64,000 bases of DNA from Edaphobacter aggregans DSM 19364 (GTDB taxonomy: Bacteria; Acidobacteriota; Terriglobia; Terriglobales; Acidobacteriaceae): contig NZ_JQKI01000013.1 in the NCBI RefSeq assembly GCF_000745965.1, positions 62,001 through 126,000 on the forward strand, read 5' to 3'. Below the pieces are notes generated by a model. The model was not told the origin of the DNA and searched no databases. It worked only from the letters and a program-made list of their open reading frames with translations. Shown here piece by piece: positions 32,187 through 47,470 of the stretch. The translations under genes and the position numbers were made by a program. Numbering within the stretch: the stretch's first letter is position 1; every line of letters begins with the position of its first letter.

Positions 32187-34118
32187 TTAATTGCTGGTCG
32201 GCCGCGGCGGCGCTGTGGTCGTAGCGGTTCCTTCCGGAGCCGATGAAGCTGTCGTCACCGGCTTTGGTGTCTCGGCGATGCGGATGTTGTTGTTACGCTT
32301 CCGCTGCTTCTCCACAAAAACATTGATAATTCCTGATGCGAGCCTGGCGGAGTTATTGCCCCAGTAGCCGTGCTCCCACAGAACTGCTACGACGATGTCG
32401 GGGTTGCGACGGGGTGTCATTCCTACAAACCAGGCGTTAGGAATGGTGCTCTTGTTCGTGCTGTTCTTCTGACGCCCGCCGACGACGTCCGCCGTCCCGG
32501 TCTTACCTGCGAAGTCGATGCCTTCCAGGCGGGCAATGTAGGCAGTACCAATCGGTGAGGACGTTACGGCGTACATGGCGTCGGTGATCGTCTGCCAGTT
32601 CTCAGGGGAAAGAGGAATGGTCTTTTCGCCGGACCCGGGAAAGGTCTCATGAACCGCTTCCAGTTCCTCCGGAGGAATTTCATCAGGAAAGACAACATGG
32701 GGACGCCGGAGGACTCCGCCTGAGGCGATGCCGGAGAGCGCACGAGCGAGTTGGATGGGGGTTGCGGTGACAGCACCCTGACCGATGCCGACCGATATCG
32801 TCTCGCCGGCGTACCACTTTTCGTGGAAGTTCCTCATCTTCCAGACGGTTGAGGGTACGGTGCCCGAGACCTCGTCGGGGAGGTCGATACCGGTCTTCTG
32901 CCCTAAGCCGACAGAGTTAGCGTACCGAGCCATGGTGTCAATACCGAGGCGGTCGGCGAGCGTGTAATAGAAGGTATCGCACGAGTAGGGGATGGCGTTG
33001 TCGATGGTGACCATACCGTGGTTGCGGTCGCAGGAGAAGTAGTGTCCGTAGAAGGTCGCACCGTGATTGCAGGGCACGTGCATGGTTTGGGCGATGCCTT
33101 CCTGAAGCCCAGCGTAGGACATGATGATCTTGAATGTCGATCCCGGGGCCAGCTGGGCCTGGATGGCCTTGTTTAGAAGAGGATGGTCGGGATTGGTGAG
33201 GATCTCGTTCCAGTAGCTCTTCGAGAGCCGGACGGAGAACTGGTTGGGATCGAAGGTGGGGCGCGAGGCAAGAGCAAGAATCTCGCCGGTATGCGGGTCC
33301 ATCGCGACGATCGCACCAGTCTTGCCTTCCAGAGCTTTTTCGGCAGCTATCTGAATATCGAGATCGATGGTCAGCTTGAGGTCCTTACCCGGCTGCGCGA
33401 GCGTCTGGCCGAGACGGCCTATCTCCTTGCCGTGCGAATTGACGATGACGTCGCGACTGCCGTCGACGCCGCGCAGCACAGCGTCGTAGGTGGCCTCGAC
33501 GCCTGACTTTCCGACCACGTCGCCCGGCTGATAAAAGGCGTACTTCGATTTGTTGAGGTCGTCCTCGGAGATCTCGCCGACGTAGCCGATGAGGTGCGCC
33601 GCGAAGCCATCGCGCGGATAGAGGCGGCGCTGCTCGTCGAGCGTCTCGAGTTCGGGTAGCTCGTTGCGATGGGCCTCGATGAAGGCCTGCTCGTCGGGAG
33701 TGATGTCCTGCTTGAGCGGAATGGGCTGATACTTCGGAGAGGACTGATAGCGCTTGATGGTGGCTTGAATCTGGTCGACGGAGATGTGAAGCCCCTGCGC
33801 GATCAGCGGCAGGTCCACGTTCAGGTCCTTCACCTGCTCCCGCAGCAGGAAGCAGGATACGGACGGGTAGTTATCCACCAGCAGCCGGCCTTCGCGATCG
33901 AAGAGCCTGCCGCGCGGCGCAAGCACAGGGACCTTGCGGATGCGGTTGGCCTCGGCCAGCGCGCGGAAGTTGTCCGCACCCACAACCTCCAGGCGCCACA
34001 GGCCGGCGGCCAGAATCACAAGCACGAGCGCGATGATGTACTGCGCGGCGTGCAGCTTCGATGCCGGCAGCTTTTCGGCCTTGCCCAGCTCCAGCTCGCT
34101 TTGTGGGGTCAGTTCCAT
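32187..34118 (-). CDS. mrdA: Penicillin-binding protein 2 (class B transpeptidase)
   Basis: 643 residues. A single N-terminal membrane anchor (IIALVLVILAAGLWRLEVV) precedes the dimerisation domain (LAPRGRLFDREGRLLVDNYPS) and the transpeptidase domain with SxxK (APGSTFK, near residue 327), SxN-position SCD (IPYSCDTFYY) and KTG (FAGKTGTAD). It cross-links peptidoglycan during elongation, in complex with RodA, MreC and MreD. The C-terminus has a Thr/Ala/Pro-rich tail. The gene lies 36 bases downstream of mreD. Confidence 0.96.
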   Translation of the reverse strand: MELTPQSELELGKAEKLPASKLHAAQYIIALVLVILAAGLWRLEVVGADNFRALAEANRIRKVPVLAPRGRLFDREGRLLVDNYPSVSCFLLREQVKDLNVDLPLIAQGLHISVDQIQATIKRYQSSPKYQPIPLKQDITPDEQAFIEAHRNELPELETLDEQRRLYPRDGFAAHLIGYVGEISEDDLNKSKYAFYQPGDVVGKSGVEATYDAVLRGVDGSRDVIVNSHGKEIGRLGQTLAQPGKDLKLTIDLDIQIAAEKALEGKTGAIVAMDPHTGEILALASRPTFDPNQFSVRLSKSYWNEILTNPDHPLLNKAIQAQLAPGSTFKIIMSYAGLQEGIAQTMHVPCNHGATFYGHYFSCDRNHGMVTIDNAIPYSCDTFYYTLADRLGIDTMARYANSVGLGQKTGIDLPDEVSGTVPSTVWKMRNFHEKWYAGETISVGIGQGAVTATPIQLARALSGIASGGVLRRPHVVFPDEIPPEELEAVHETFPGSGEKTIPLSPENWQTITDAMYAVTSSPIGTAYIARLEGIDFAGKTGTADVVGGRQKNSTNKSTIPNAWFVGMTPRRNPDIVVAVLWEHGYWGNNSARLASGIINVFVEKQRKRNNNIRIAETPKPVTTASSAPEGTATTTAPPRPTSN

Positions 34119-41322: not shown

Positions 41323-42702
41323 CTATTCCTTGACCGTCACGCCCAGCGCCTTCATCTTGCGGTAGAGATGGCTGCGCTCGAGCCCCAGCCCCTCGGCCGC
41401 GCGGCTCACGTTGCCGTGAAATTCGTCCAGTTTCTTCAGGATGAACTCACGCTCGTAAGCCTCGCGCGCCTCCACCAGACTTGAGAACTCCTCGCTCTTC
41501 GTGTTGATGCGTCCCGACTCCGTGAGCTTCGGTCCGCGATACACCAGCATCGGCAGGTGCTTCTTCTCGATGCGATTTATCTTCGGGTTCAGGATCAGCA
41601 CGCGCTCCACCAGGTTGCGCAGCTCGCGCACGTTCCCCGGCCAGTGATACTGGCGCAGCGCAGCCAGCGCATCCTCGGTCATCTCCATGTGCGGTCTGCC
41701 GTAGCGCGGGCCGAACTCCTCGAGAAACTCCTTCACCAGAAGCGGGATGTCTTCCTTGCGATCGCGCAACGGTGGGACGTAAAACGGAATTACGTTCAGG
41801 CGATAAAAGAGGTCCTCGCGAAAGTTTCCGCGCGCGATCTCTTCTTCGAGGTCCTTGTTGGTCGCCGCAATCACGCGCACATCCACGTGAACCGGATGCG
41901 AGGCACCTACCGGAAGAAATCTCTGCTCGTCGAGCGCGCGCAACACCTTCGCCTGCGTCTTCAGGCTCATGTCGCCCACTTCATCCAGGAACAGCGTGCC
42001 GCCGTCGGCGCGCTCGAAGGTTCCGCGCTTCTCCTGCGGGCCCCCGAGAACCGCGCCGTGGCGGTAGCCGAAGAGTTCGCTCTCAATGTAATCCTCAGGA
42101 ATCGCCGCGCAGTTCAGCTCGACGAAGGGGCGGTCCTTGCGCAGGCTCGCCGCATGCATCGCCTTGCCGATCAGCTCCTTGCCGGTGCCGCTCTCGCCGT
42201 AGATCAGCACGCGGCCATTGGTTGGGGCCATCAGCTTGATCTGCTGGCGCAACGCCTTCATCGCCACGCTCTGTCCGGTCACGTTCGACCGCGACGTCAG
42301 CTGCCGCGCAAACTCCGCGTTGTCCTCGCGCATCTGCCGTGCGCGCATCGCGTTCTTCACCACGATCAGCGTCCGCTCGAGCGACAACGGCTTCTCGAGA
42401 AAGTCGTACGCCCCCAGCTTCGTCGCACGCACTGCGGCCTCAATGGTTCCGTGACCGCTGATGATGACGACCTCGGGAACGCTGGCGTTCTCCAGCCGAC
42501 GAATCTCTCCCAGCGTCTCCAGTCCGTCGCGATCCGGCAGCCAGATGTCCAGCAGCACCACATCGTAGTCGGCGTCGCGCACCAGTTCCAGCGCCTCGGT
42601 GGCGGTCGCGCTGGTCGTCACCACGTATCCCTCTTCGCGCAGGATGCCCTCGAGGGACTCGCGAATCTCCGCCTCGTCGTCGACGATCAACACGTGGTTC
42701 AA
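41323..42702 (-). CDS. ntrX: NtrC-family response regulator (NtrX-like) with degenerate GAFTGA
   Basis: 459 residues. Receiver domain with phospho-acceptor Asp52 (LLDIWLPDRDG); AAA+ domain with Walker A GESGTGKE (169-176) and Walker B GGTLFLDEVGDM (234-245); C-terminal Fis-type helix-turn-helix (GNVSRAAEGLGLERSHLYRKMKALG). In the L1 loop, where sigma54 activators have GAFTGA, the sequence is GAVLGG (216-221; ELFGYRHGAVLGGPQEKRGTFE). That change predicts poor or no contact with sigma54. The start overlaps the kinase stop by 4 bases. NtrX assignment follows from its sensor partner. Confidence 0.9.
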   Translation of the reverse strand: MNHVLIVDDEAEIRESLEGILREEGYVVTTSATATEALELVRDADYDVVLLDIWLPDRDGLETLGEIRRLENASVPEVVIISGHGTIEAAVRATKLGAYDFLEKPLSLERTLIVVKNAMRARQMREDNAEFARQLTSRSNVTGQSVAMKALRQQIKLMAPTNGRVLIYGESGTGKELIGKAMHAASLRKDRPFVELNCAAIPEDYIESELFGYRHGAVLGGPQEKRGTFERADGGTLFLDEVGDMSLKTQAKVLRALDEQRFLPVGASHPVHVDVRVIAATNKDLEEEIARGNFREDLFYRLNVIPFYVPPLRDRKEDIPLLVKEFLEEFGPRYGRPHMEMTEDALAALRQYHWPGNVRELRNLVERVLILNPKINRIEKKHLPMLVYRGPKLTESGRINTKSEEFSSLVEAREAYEREFILKKLDEFHGNVSRAAEGLGLERSHLYRKMKALGVTVKE

Positions 42703-45107
42703 GCCGTCACTCCCCCGTTGCCGTGCACCGCTGTTGCAGACCCTTCTTGTCCCCCATCCGCGCCTGCAGCGGCCCTCAGCTCGATGATGAACTTCGCGCC
42801 GGCGGGGACATTCTTCTCCGCGCGAATCGTCCCCTGATGTTCCTGAACGATCTTCGCCGCAATCGCGAGCCCCAGCCCGGTGCCGCGCTGCTTGGTCGAA
42901 AAGTACGGCAGAAAGAGGCGTTCGCGCATCTCGTCCGTCAGGCCGGAACCCGTATCTGCGACGGTCAGTTCCACCATGCCGTTCTCGAGCAGGCTCGTCG
43001 TGATTCTCAGCTCGCGCAGCAGGCTCGACTGCATCGCCTCTGCCGCATTGTCGATAAGGTTGCCGATCGCGCGCTTCAGCGCCTCAGGGTCGGCCATCAC
43101 CAGCGGAAGATTCTTGCCCATCCACTTGACGACCGTGATGGTCTGCATACGCCCCGCAAACATCGCCAGCGAGTTCTCGACGATGGTGTTGAGGTCCGCG
43201 GGCCGCGGCTGCGCCGTCGGAAACTCGGCGAGCGCGCCAAACTGATCCACCAGTGACCGCATGCTCTCCACCGAGCTCGAGATCACCTCGCTCGACCGGT
43301 GTATCACCGCGGGCGAAGGCGACTCGATCGCGTGGAAACGCAGCGTCTCCGCCAGCCGGTCGATGTGCCTCCGAATCTGCTCGGCGCTCAGCGAGATCGG
43401 CGTCAGCGGGTTCTTGATCTCATGCGCCACGCGTCGCGCGACCTCCTTCCACGCCGACTGCTTTTGCGCACGCAGAAGCTCCGTCGCGTTCTCCAGCACA
43501 ATCACGTAGCCCCTGTGCTCGCGGCGCATGCGCTCGTTGCCGATCGGTGTCTCGAGCAGCGCAACCGTCGCCAGCAGGTTCAGCGTGGCGCCAAACTCTC
43601 CTTCGGGAGGAGTCATATCGACCTCGCTCGACGCCGAGCCCATCCGGTGGCTGCGCTTGATCAGCCGATCGAGCACCTCGGCAACGTCCTTCGGAAATAC
43701 CTCCTCCATCGGACAGCCCAGAAACGGCCTCTGCCCGCCGGGGTCCATCATCTCGCTCAGCGCGCGGTTCGCCAGAATAATGCGCCGCTCCGGGTCGAGA
43801 GTCGCCACGCCGTTCGGAATCGTCTCGAGCATCGTCTCCAGCTCGCCCCTACGCGCCTCGAGCGCCGAGTTCGCTGCACTCAGCTGAATCGTCGACTCGT
43901 CAACGGCCCTGCGGCTGCCCTCAAGGTCGGCGGCCATGTGGTTGAAGCTCCCCACCAGCTCGCCCAGCTCCTCGGTCGCGCTCTCCTTCACGCGATGCGC
44001 ATAGTCGCCCGCGGCGATCGCCTCCATCGCGTCTGCCAAGGCCTCCACGGGCTTCGTCACCTGCTTTGAAAGATGCAACGCCAGCCAGCTTGAAGCGAAC
44101 AGCGCCAGGCATGTCATCATCAGCAGCAACATCATGTAGAGGTTGCGCAGTTGGCGCCGTCCACGAAACAGCGTCCAGTACTGGTCGGCAGCCGAGCGCA
44201 GCCGCGTCATCGTCGCCGCCATGCCGTGCGGCATCGGCAGGCCCACCACCACCACCTGCCCCTGCCGCATCGTCGCGGAGCCCAGCGCATAGTCCGTATC
44301 GCCCAGGCTGAAGACAGGCTCGTCGGTGCGCTTCGCTGCCTCCAGAATCGCCGCGTCCGTGGGGCCTTTCAGCGGCTGGCCTTCGGTCAGCTGGCCATCG
44401 CGCACCACTCTCGAACCGCCGGCGCTTATGCCGCCCTGCTCCGGAAGCCACGTCCTCACCTGCGCGGTTGCTCCGTCGCTGCTGGGCACGTGGAACGAAG
44501 CCGCTGCGCGTCCTTCCTCGTACACCACGGCAAAGCCGTTCTGCAGCGTGATCTCGTGCTGGCGCAGCACAGCTTCCATCTCGCTGCGAGTCATTCGCAG
44601 AGCCGTCGCAGCTTTGCCCCGCTGCAGTTTGGTCTCCAGTAGGCGCGACGCAATCGAATCCGCCTCCGCACGCGCATTCGCCGTCGTATAGCGAGCCAGC
44701 TCGAAAGCCATCCGGTTCGCGTCGTCGCGCATCTCCGTCACCGGCTGCGAGAACCAGCGATCCACCGCGCGATTCAGCAACAGATAGCTGAAGGCGAACA
44801 TGAACGAGATCGGAAGCAGGCTCACCAGCACCGCTCCCCACAGCATCCTCGTTCGCAGCCTCGTCCCCATCACGCGGCTGCGCTGGTCCGCATACAGCTT
44901 CAGGACGTTGCGAACCAGCATCACCAGCACGGCCACGAAGAGCAGAAACGCCACCACCGACAGGCCCGTGTAGATGAAGATCTGACCCGTCGTCTCCGGA
45001 TCGAGAAAGCGCTTATTGAAGGCATTCAGGGCCGCGAGCGCGACAAACAGCACGAGCAGGCAGGTCCCCAGCACGAGGATCTTTCGCCTGTTGTCCGTGA
45101 TGGCCAT
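42699..45107 (-). CDS. ntrY: NtrY-like membrane sensor histidine kinase
   Basis: 802 residues. Membrane helices near 10-30, 40-65 and 90-110, a large periplasmic loop (about 115-320), a further helix near 325-350, HAMP (VTKPVEALADAMEAIAAGDYAHRVKE), a PAS domain (LETIPNGVATLDPERRIILANRAL), HisKA (RVAHEIKNPLTPISLSAEQIRRH, His near 560) and HATPase (NLIDNAAEAMQ, DTGSGLTDEM, GTGLGLAIA). It should phosphorylate the adjoining NtrX-like regulator. The gene lies 22 bases after ald on the same strand, so ald-ntrY-ntrX form an operon. Ligand unknown. Confidence 0.92.
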   Translation of the reverse strand: MAITDNRRKILVLGTCLLVLFVALAALNAFNKRFLDPETTGQIFIYTGLSVVAFLLFVAVLVMLVRNVLKLYADQRSRVMGTRLRTRMLWGAVLVSLLPISFMFAFSYLLLNRAVDRWFSQPVTEMRDDANRMAFELARYTTANARAEADSIASRLLETKLQRGKAATALRMTRSEMEAVLRQHEITLQNGFAVVYEEGRAAASFHVPSSDGATAQVRTWLPEQGGISAGGSRVVRDGQLTEGQPLKGPTDAAILEAAKRTDEPVFSLGDTDYALGSATMRQGQVVVVGLPMPHGMAATMTRLRSAADQYWTLFRGRRQLRNLYMMLLLMMTCLALFASSWLALHLSKQVTKPVEALADAMEAIAAGDYAHRVKESATEELGELVGSFNHMAADLEGSRRAVDESTIQLSAANSALEARRGELETMLETIPNGVATLDPERRIILANRALSEMMDPGGQRPFLGCPMEEVFPKDVAEVLDRLIKRSHRMGSASSEVDMTPPEGEFGATLNLLATVALLETPIGNERMRREHRGYVIVLENATELLRAQKQSAWKEVARRVAHEIKNPLTPISLSAEQIRRHIDRLAETLRFHAIESPSPAVIHRSSEVISSSVESMRSLVDQFGALAEFPTAQPRPADLNTIVENSLAMFAGRMQTITVVKWMGKNLPLVMADPEALKRAIGNLIDNAAEAMQSSLLRELRITTSLLENGMVELTVADTGSGLTDEMRERLFLPYFSTKQRGTGLGLAIAAKIVQEHQGTIRAEKNVPAGAKFIIELRAAAGADGGQEGSATAVHGNGGVTA

Positions 45108-45129: not shown

Positions 45130-46242
45130 CTACACCAGCTCCGCTACGGACTTCCACTCGCGCCTCTGCGCCGCCGCCACTGCCTCATACGTCAGAACGC
45201 CGTCGTACGTATTCACGCCCTCGGCGATGCCATTGTCTTCCTTGATCGCCGCCTTGGCACCAACTTTCGCGAGCCTCATCACATATGGGAACGTCGCATT
45301 GGTCAGCGCGAGCGTCGACGTATTCGGAACCGCCGCCGGCATGTTCGTCACGCAGTAGTGCACCACGCCGTCCACCACGTACGAAGGATCGCTGTGCGTC
45401 GTCGGGCGCGCGGTCTCGATGCAACCGCCCTGGTCGATCGCCACGTCCACGATCACCGCGCCCTTCTTCATCTTCGCGACCATCGTCTTGGTGACGATCT
45501 TCGGCGCCGCCGCTCCCGGAATCAGCACGCCGCCCACCAGCAGATCTGCCTCGCGCGCCGCGCGCTCAATGTTGTAGCTGTTCGAGGCCATGGTGAAGAC
45601 GCGCCCGTTGAAGATATCGTCCAACTCGCGCAGCCGGTTCAGGCTCAGGTCCACCAGCGTCACCTTCGCTCCCATGCCCAGAGCCATCTTCGCCGCGTTC
45701 GTTCCCACCACGCCGCCGCCGATGATGCACACGTTCCCTGGAGGCACACCCGGAACTCCACCCAGCAGCAGCCCGCGGCCGCCGTGCTCCTTGGTCAGAT
45801 ACTCCGCGCCTACCTGCACGCTCAGCCGCCCGGCGACCTCGCTCATCGGCGTCAGCAGAGGCAGCGCTCCGGTACGGTCGCGCACCGTCTCATAGGCGAT
45901 GCCAGTAACCTTCTTCTTCAGCAGGGCGTCCGTCAGCTCGGTCAGCGGAGCCAGGTGCAGGTAGGTAAACAGCACCAGCCCCTCGCGGAAGTGCCGGTAC
46001 TCCGACTCCACCGGTTCCTTTACCTTCACCACCATCTCGGCACGGCGCCACACGTCGTCGGCGGATGCCACCATCTTGGCGCCCGCGGCCTCGTACTCCT
46101 CGTCCGGCATGGCCGAAAGCGCTCCCGCCTTCTGCTCCACCAGAACCGTATGTCCAGCTTCAACCAGCGCCTTAACACCCGCCGGGGTTACGCCTACACG
46201 GCTCTCGTGGTCTTTCACTTCCTTCGGCACGCCAAGAATCAT
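45130..46242 (-). CDS. ald: Alanine dehydrogenase
   Basis: 370 residues. N-terminal [36 protein letters not shown] and [17 protein letters not shown] are the AlaDH/PNT signatures. [29 protein letters not shown] is the NAD-binding Rossmann loop. [40 protein letters not shown] matches the catalytic end. It interconverts L-alanine with pyruvate and ammonia. Start at 46242 because GGAG lies 10 bases upstream and the family N-terminus begins there. First gene of the ald-ntrYX operon, so nitrogen control of alanine use is a reasonable inference. Confidence 0.95.
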
Positions 46243-46405
46243 TGTTATCTCACTCCGTACCCCGATTGTATCTATTCGTGACAATCCCGGGCCGCTGCGC
46301 TACTTTGCCTCCAGGAGCGCAAAACACCTCTTCCCGCAGTACACTCGCAGGAAAGCCTTACAATAGCGGTAATACCTCTGCCCTCTAGGAACGAACCAGC
46401 CCAAA

Positions 46406-47470
46406 ATGTCTTCGAACAACTTTCAGACGCGTTACTCCCGCATCCACAATATGCGGTCCCTCTTCAGCCTGTTTTCGAGCGATCTCGCCATTGATCTCGG
46501 CACGGCCAACACCCTCGTCTACGCTGCCGGCAAGGGAATCATCGTCAACGAGCCCTCCATCATCGCAGTGAACAAGGTCACCAACGAGGTCGAGGCCGTC
46601 GGTAAAGAGGCCAAGGACATGCTCGGCCGCACCCCCGGCAACATCGTCGCCATCAAGCCCATGAAGGACGGCGTCATCGCCGACTTCCGGCACACGGAGA
46701 AGATGCTGAACTACTTCATCCAGAAGGCGCACAACCGCAAGATGATGGTGCACCCGCGTATCGTCATCGGCGTGCCCTCCGAGATCACCCAGGTTGAAAA
46801 GCGCGCCGTCATGGACTCCGCTTATCGGGCGAAGGCATCCGAGGTCCACCTCGTCGAGCAGGCGATGGTCGCCGCGATTGGCGCGGGTTTGCCCATCACC
46901 GAGCCCGGCGGAAACATGGTCGTCGACATCGGCGGAGGTACCACGGACATCGCCGTCATCTCGCTGGCAGGCATTGTGTATTCGCGCTCGGTCCGGGTGG
47001 CCGGGAACCAGATGGACGAGGCTGTCATCACGTACCTGAAGCGGAAGTACAACCTGCTGATCGGCGAGCGCACCGGCGAGCAGATCAAGATGCAGCTCGG
47101 CTCCGCCTACATTCTCGACAAGCCGCTCTCGATGGAGGTCAAGGGACGCAATCTGATCGAAGGCGTGCCGAAGACCATCACCATCGACGACTCCGAGATC
47201 CGCGAAGCCCTCTCCGAGTGCATCGCGACGATCATCAACGCCATTCGAGTTGCCCTCGAGCGCACCCCGCCCGAGCTCTCGGCCGACATCTCCGACCGCG
47301 GCATCGTCCTCACGGGCGGCGGCGCGCTCATCAAGAACCTCGACAAGCGCATCCGCGAGGAGACGGGCCTGCCGGTCTCTATCGCCGACGACCCGCTGGC
47401 CTCAGTCGTGCTCGGAACCGGCAAGATGCTCTCGGACTTCAAGCTCCTCCGCAAGATCTCGATCGACTAG
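46406..47470 (+). CDS. mreB: Actin-like rod-shape protein MreB
   Basis: 354 residues. FSSDLAIDLGTANTLVYAAGKGIIVNEPSI (phosphate-1), MLGRTPGNIVAIKPMKDGVIADF, VVDIGGGTTDIAVISLAGIV (phosphate-2), GERTGEQIKMQLGSAY and RGIVLTGGGALIKNLDK (adenosine) are all present. It forms membrane-bound filaments that position the elongasome. It is complete, but sits about 10 kb away from mreCD and is transcribed the opposite way. Start ATG 46406 is at the head of a 15-residue extension; ATG 46451 (MRSLFSLF) would be the more usual N-terminus. Confidence 0.97.
   Translation: MSSNNFQTRYSRIHNMRSLFSLFSSDLAIDLGTANTLVYAAGKGIIVNEPSIIAVNKVTNEVEAVGKEAKDMLGRTPGNIVAIKPMKDGVIADFRHTEKMLNYFIQKAHNRKMMVHPRIVIGVPSEITQVEKRAVMDSAYRAKASEVHLVEQAMVAAIGAGLPITEPGGNMVVDIGGGTTDIAVISLAGIVYSRSVRVAGNQMDEAVITYLKRKYNLLIGERTGEQIKMQLGSAYILDKPLSMEVKGRNLIEGVPKTITIDDSEIREALSECIATIINAIRVALERTPPELSADISDRGIVLTGGGALIKNLDKRIREETGLPVSIADDPLASVVLGTGKMLSDFKLLRKISID

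Follow-up and report, generated by a model that had tools for sequence, protein, structure and literature searches.

The window, the stretch of 64,000 nucleotides of Edaphobacter aggregans DSM 19364 DNA analysed here, carries a gene for an NtrX-like response regulator next to genes for a sensor kinase and an alanine dehydrogenase (Table 1). The regulator combines a receiver, an AAA+ and a Fis-type helix–turn–helix (HTH) domain and is encoded beside an NtrY-type kinase, the arrangement of NtrX proteins. Its AAA+ domain matches Sigma54_activat (PF00158) at 219 bits, and the best of the 117 NCBIfam models matched was NF051870 NtrX (497 bits over residues 3–455 of 459; runner-up, 398 bits). Because this score lies below the curated NF051870 cut-off of 600 bits, we call the protein NtrX-like; the kinase is called NtrY-like from its domains and neighbourhood, with no NtrY-named NCBIfam model among its 25 best rows. 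Given their spacing, ald, ntrY and ntrX look like one operon. A preliminary description of this DNA had recognized an NtrC-family activator with intact Walker A, Walker B, receiver and Fis domains, paired with an NtrY-like kinase and downstream of ald; this picture stands, with the kinase gene directly upstream of ntrX, ald upstream of the kinase gene, and the receiver Asp and the HTH also reading as intact. A structure model of the regulator was mediocre (mean pLDDT 68.5, pTM 0.47, residues 214–219 below 50), and we therefore base no structural claim on it.

Table 1. Features of the ald–ntrY–ntrX locus, in coordinates of the window
Feature	Position	Strand	Remarks
NtrX-like response regulator ORF	41323..42702	(-)	459 residues
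Domains of the NtrX-like protein			receiver 4-111; AAA+ 142-306; lid 313-387; Fis-type HTH 414-452 (residues, from domain matches)
GAVLGG, eroded L1 loop at the GAFTGA site	42040..42057	(-)	residues 216-221
NtrY-like sensor kinase (HAMP, PAS, HisKA, HATPase_c)	42699..45107	(-)	4-base overlap with ntrX
Alanine dehydrogenase (ald)	45130..46242	(-)	start assigned to the internal ATG; separated from ntrY by 22 bases
TACAAT, -10-like hexamer	46265..46270	(-)	starts 28 bases before the ald ATG; positioned by hand

At the site of the GAFTGA motif the regulator reads GAVLGG (codons GGC GCG GTT CTC GGG GGC, running 42057–42040), with ELFGYRHGAVLGG in the NtrX-like protein lying where the other activators of the genome have LFGHEKGAFTGA. 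The preliminary description had placed this replacement at 42036–42060, an interval within which the codons fall, and had named a sequencing error as what would undo it. Sequencing error and chance are both ruled out by the orthologs: one was found in 35 of 36 same-genus genomes searched, at 81–93% identity (the sole genome without a match is 63% complete), and Phe-Thr is absent from the loop in all 35. It is likewise absent in 80 of 80 loops of a second collection, the best 80 of 510 confirmed matches (69–94% identity), drawn from Edaphobacter, Granulicella, Terriglobus, Silvibacterium, Bryocella, Acidicapsa, Acidobacterium and other Acidobacteriaceae; the two collections overlap, and identical proteins were counted once in later tallies. 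The exact GAVLGG was seen in this genome only, its neighbours having GAVPGG, GAMPGG, GAVQGS and others, so the common feature is an eroded loop and not a Val-Leu replacement.

To these orthologs we added 30 loci and a further 100 from class and phylum searches, hand-chosen for spread among the matches listed. A match was found in 239 of 250 genomes in the class (E 1e-125 or better) and in 212 of 247 in the phylum (E 1e-122 or better), the loop being read in a minority of these matches. Repeats and four proteins shorter than 440 residues (L053, L085, L105 and L268) were dropped, reducing 241 rows, window included, to 215 distinct orthologs, which by our own patterns divide into 73 canonical-type loops (G[ASG][FY]TG followed by A, S or T), 4 GxFT variants, 32 with Thr changed to Pro or Ala and 106 degenerate loops. 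Between ELFG and the next conserved Gly, all 73 canonical orthologs have 14 residues and the degenerate ones 10–22; one Acidobacteriaceae protein scored by pattern as Pro type (L171) has a loop of 26. Together with the 101 degenerate rows of family f1, to which named loci were assigned by identity rather than by taxonomy lookup, L171 makes up an Acidobacteriaceae clade of 102 distinct orthologs (the f1 crown). Here the loop is a Gly/Pro-rich linker of 10–26 residues, 81% of them G, P, A, S, N or T vs 32% across the whole protein. Comparing the loop across acidobacterial NtrX homologues, as the preliminary description had proposed, thus shows the GAFTGA of sigma54-activating enhancer-binding proteins to be missing well beyond GAVLGG itself: FT occurs in 0 of the 102 clade loops. 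Its claim that the sigma54-contact motif is lost therefore holds clade-wide, with the refinement that the 102 sequences contain 79 different loops, of which GAVLGG is just one. We reject GAVLGG as a fixed motif on the basis of this variety, and a role for GAVLGG itself as a new contact motif appears unlikely. Elsewhere in the survey, L080 and L082 (f2), L085 (f4) and L191 (f1) have loops shortened in separate lineages, for example ELFGQGREGSAPQPG and ELFGDAKESRKG, a second route beside linker-type erosion.

Site rates, which are relative within each set and computed on the columns of the window's protein, place the loop core (residues 218–224) at 2.77 vs 0.59 for the remaining AAA+ domain in the 102 clade members, making it the fastest seven-residue stretch of that domain, although the value comes from one alignment and a length-variable stretch is hard to align. 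The corresponding rates in the 73 canonical orthologs are 0.60 and 0.75. The HTH evolves slowly in the clade (0.48), and interdomain linkers are variable too (2.41 at residues 376–409). Invariant in all 102 are the Walker A Gly and Lys, the Walker B Asp-Glu, N197, R295, R301, R359 and the receiver Asp52. The ATPase features of sigma54 activators are accordingly all present, namely Walker A and B together with what we take, by comparison with the family and with a review's legend, to be the switch Asn, the arginine fingers and sensor II.

The history of the loop was followed on a tree of 139 rows, built by a quick search under LG+G4 with the loop columns removed; the tree has no outgroup, so that the direction of change is inferred from nesting, and L085 was restored to it and labelled by hand. 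Kept and lost loops require five changes, four of them forced by strongly supported branches: the lost rows comprise one clade of 50 (f1 and f2), 9 of 12 f6 rows and single rows in f3, f4 and f8. Within the clade of 50, the six-residue loop has Pro or Ala in place of Thr in 11 of 14 f2 rows and in all 11 basal f1 rows (GAFPGA, GSFPGA and GSFAGA among them), and the free linker is found in the subclade containing the window's gene. Because many rows differ from the canonical loop by the Thr change alone, this pattern suggests stepwise erosion, in which Thr would have changed first and the loop eroded afterwards. GAFTNA replaces GAFTGA in L242 and L270 (families f49 and f70), deep rows that the tree groups as a pair.

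Sigma54 itself has been retained. The check for rpoN that the preliminary description had suggested finds the gene in the window's genome, in 36 of 37 same-genus genomes (one of these a fragment) and in 55 of 61 genomes searched; the six genomes with no match include G008, G039 and G037, which are 90, 97 and 98% complete. Loss of sigma54 at the genome level is thus rejected as the cause of loop loss in the genus, and the regulator shares with GAFTGA-less NtrC-type proteins the combination of an absent GAFTGA and a present rpoN. All 25 other activator domains scoring at least 205 bits in the window's genome keep [FY]T, some with altered ends (GAFTSA, GAFTDA, GAFTGT); L030 (79 bits), weaker AAA+ matches, fragments and one domain divided between two overlapping frames fall outside this count. 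The divided domain (L028 and L029, G000:C46:28319-28820) lies 1.8 kb before an intact activator-type domain and reflects a frameshift, either a genuine one or one introduced by the assembly. L030 (G000:C7:102282-103220 (+), 313 aa) is an AAA+ protein of the sigma54-activator type with no receiver, no L1 loop and an altered Walker B (VDGAEE). It has matches in 13 of 41 genomes including its own, all within the genus and the other 12 at 40–61% identity; in the five relatives that were read the loop region is strongly variable and none has GAFTGA.

Where at least 4.9 kb of upstream sequence was available, ald was found ahead of ntrYX and in the same orientation in 40 of 54 f1-crown loci vs none of the 10 basal f1 loci, the 21 other lost loci and the 61 kept loci; this count leaves out the window and many same-genus loci with shorter flanks and may miss an ald beyond the fetched stretch. 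The link to ald is thus seen only in the clade with a fully eroded loop. Of 23 distinct same-genus regions preceding ald, 20 contain the hexamer TACAAT (mean of shuffles, 1.1), which in 18 of them lies 28–58 bases ahead of the ald ATG; beyond the genus it was found in only 1 of 29 upstream regions of other clade members, and by eye no clear -35 box precedes it. A strict -24/-12 pattern occurs upstream of ald in 0 of 52 regions, which says little since shuffles also yield almost none, and counts of the loose GG-N10-GC are close to those expected by chance or lower (genus, 15 of 23 vs 18.8; others, 25 of 29 vs 23.7). Nearby sigma54 promoters, tried as a marker of coupling across loci with at least 3 kb upstream, gave no clear signal: sites lie in 4 of 96 lost and 9 of 69 kept loci, or 0.14 vs 0.09 per canonical locus and 0.05 vs 0.11 per lost locus. 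As canonical loci have no clear excess either, this locus never clearly marked coupling to sigma54.

Motif counts against shuffles in the 300 bases upstream of ald (52 regions) gave no convincing NtrX site. CAAN2-5TTG was found in 4 of 23 genus regions (shuffled, 4.4) and 10 of 29 from the remainder of the clade (5.7; reached by 13 of 300 shuffles), and GCAN9TGC in 4 of 23 (1.6; reached by 23 of 300) and 4 of 29 (2.2; reached by 57 of 300), the window's own region having one GCAN9TGC. Counts over all regions together were 12 of 52 vs 7.9 for CAAN3-5TTG and 18 of 52 vs 11.9 for TTGN3-7CAA; an unguided dyad search returned CGGC (9 of 23, against at most 8 in 50 shuffled sets) and ATGCGG (3 of 23, against at most 2 in shuffled sets). 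In the window ald stands back to back with mreB (45130-47470). Of 24 same-genus rows that have ald (L086-L122, two genomes being represented twice), 23 have mreB farther upstream and encoded on the other strand. The window also has a PBP2-like gene at 32187-34118, and ntrYX may accordingly belong to a neighbourhood concerned with cell shape. Regulation of the cell envelope by NtrYX is reported in PMC7240162, and known NtrYX systems have also been tied to the cell envelope, the cell cycle, redox and acid responses. In suggesting control of nitrogen genes the preliminary description goes too far, although its central idea holds; any nitrogen role of the regulator would be conjectural.

We consider it probable that NtrX in this clade has become uncoupled from sigma54 and works in a non-sigma54 mode, by analogy most likely at sigma70-type promoters. 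The L1 tip that would contact sigma54 has been eroded to a variable Gly/Pro linker, with key receiver, ATP-handling and HTH residues strongly constrained and rpoN retained. In the mechanism that we propose, NtrY would phosphorylate NtrX at Asp52, and NtrX would bind DNA through its Fis-type HTH and activate or repress sigma70-type promoters, perhaps among them the promoter of its own ald–ntrY–ntrX operon. The -10-like element bears only on this last promoter. The preserved AAA+ site would then serve nucleotide-controlled assembly or DNA binding rather than remodelling of the sigma54 holoenzyme. According to the review PMC7175178, GAFTGA mutants mostly cannot activate, being impaired in hydrolysing ATP, in communication between subunits or in binding sigma54.

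How the ATPase is used is where the readings part. A ring ATPase kept under purifying selection after dropping its sigma54 contact, with ATP turnover reused at sigma70 promoters and intermediates surviving from a process repeated in several lineages (GAFTGA-type, then GSFPGA/GSFAGA-type, then free linker), is a tentative proposal that we rate as rather unlikely. It is doubtful, though a serious possibility, that NtrX is a phosphorylation-controlled repressor or dimeric DNA binder only, its AAA+ domain binding ATP without hydrolysing it; this is a narrower form of the uncoupled model, with the same loss of sigma54 contact and a difference on ATP. It gains from the closest solved structure by both sequence and fold, that of Brucella NtrX, which is also without GAFTGA and reportedly shows neither ATPase activity nor oligomerisation, and from Sinorhizobium meliloti, where, in the extracts available, phosphorylated NtrX binds promoters and lowers the expression of some genes. 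The catalytic Walker B Glu, the arginine fingers and sensor II, invariant in the 102 members, seem more than such a protein needs, an argument tempered by the similar motifs that Brucella NtrX keeps in the alignment.

The conserved ATPase residues would fit some residual remodelling activity too, and so lend something to the idea that NtrX still works with sigma54 polymerase, either by a contact of a non-canonical kind or by joining mixed rings in which another activator supplies GAFTGA. In the same direction point the coexistence of rpoN with 25 [FY]T activators and a 2025 study (PMC12421884) which, in its available part, has loopless Caulobacter NtrC mutants still raising some sigma54 genes, flagellar ones among them, and which limits how certain uncoupling can be. 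The position of contact is nevertheless the fastest seven-residue stretch of the AAA+ domain and spans 10–26 residues, unlike a contact surface, and we regard continued use of sigma54 as improbable. Scarcely credible is a loop decaying in a gene that is losing its function altogether: the repeated losses would suit it, but no ortholog row listed in the genus, family or class searches has an internal stop, and the remaining AAA+ domain and the HTH evolve slowly.

Uncoupling from sigma54 thus remains our preferred reading, and it suggests a gradual departure from sigma54 that enhancer-binding proteins can make repeatedly within a single phylum and with no loss of ATPase residues. Since intermediates survive, the proposed order, Thr change first and loop erosion later, can be tested. 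The case also cautions that a PF00158 protein is not always a sigma54 activator, the regulator here being matched in 239 of 250 class genomes. It is of moderate interest in that the loop was lost repeatedly, intermediates survive and the residues of the ATPase are preserved.

The preliminary description had likened the regulator to Rhodobacter proteins acting with sigma70, an apt analogy since alphaproteobacterial NtrC and NtrX proteins without GAFTGA are known: as far as the available text of PMC10274813 goes, Caulobacter crescentus and Rhodobacter capsulatus NtrC lack the motif, act at sigma70 promoters and require aspartyl phosphorylation for activation, and Caulobacter NtrX is implied to lack it as well. 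Those two differ from the window's protein in being NtrC and not NtrX, in having the loop deleted and in belonging to Alphaproteobacteria. For Acidobacteria, the portions of the open-licence literature available to us contained no report of GAFTGA-less NtrX or enhancer-binding proteins, which is weak evidence of novelty. Brucella abortus NtrX (5m7n/5m7o/5m7p) is the best PDB sequence match (358 bits, nearly full length) and, from the weak model of the window's protein, also the best Foldseek match; its partner kinase is NtrY, as for the regulator here, and GAFTGA is absent with a four-residue gap at L1 in the alignment. Its loop is thus shortened, whereas most clade members have a Gly/Pro linker of normal length or longer. 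Acidobacterial NtrX proteins with GAFTGA or GSFTGA, orthologs at about 52–63% identity and with an NtrY-matching kinase gene just upstream in most loci read, differ in their slow L1 loop of fixed length and in having no upstream ald in the 61 kept loci counted. Loss of the loop in Acidobacteriota looks separate from that in Brucella, because the phylum is a different one and GAFTGA-type loops persist in those deeper acidobacterial orthologs that were read. NtrX and NtrC proteins without GAFTGA being already known from Alphaproteobacteria, what is new here is apparently a separate and repeated loss within the Acidobacteriota.
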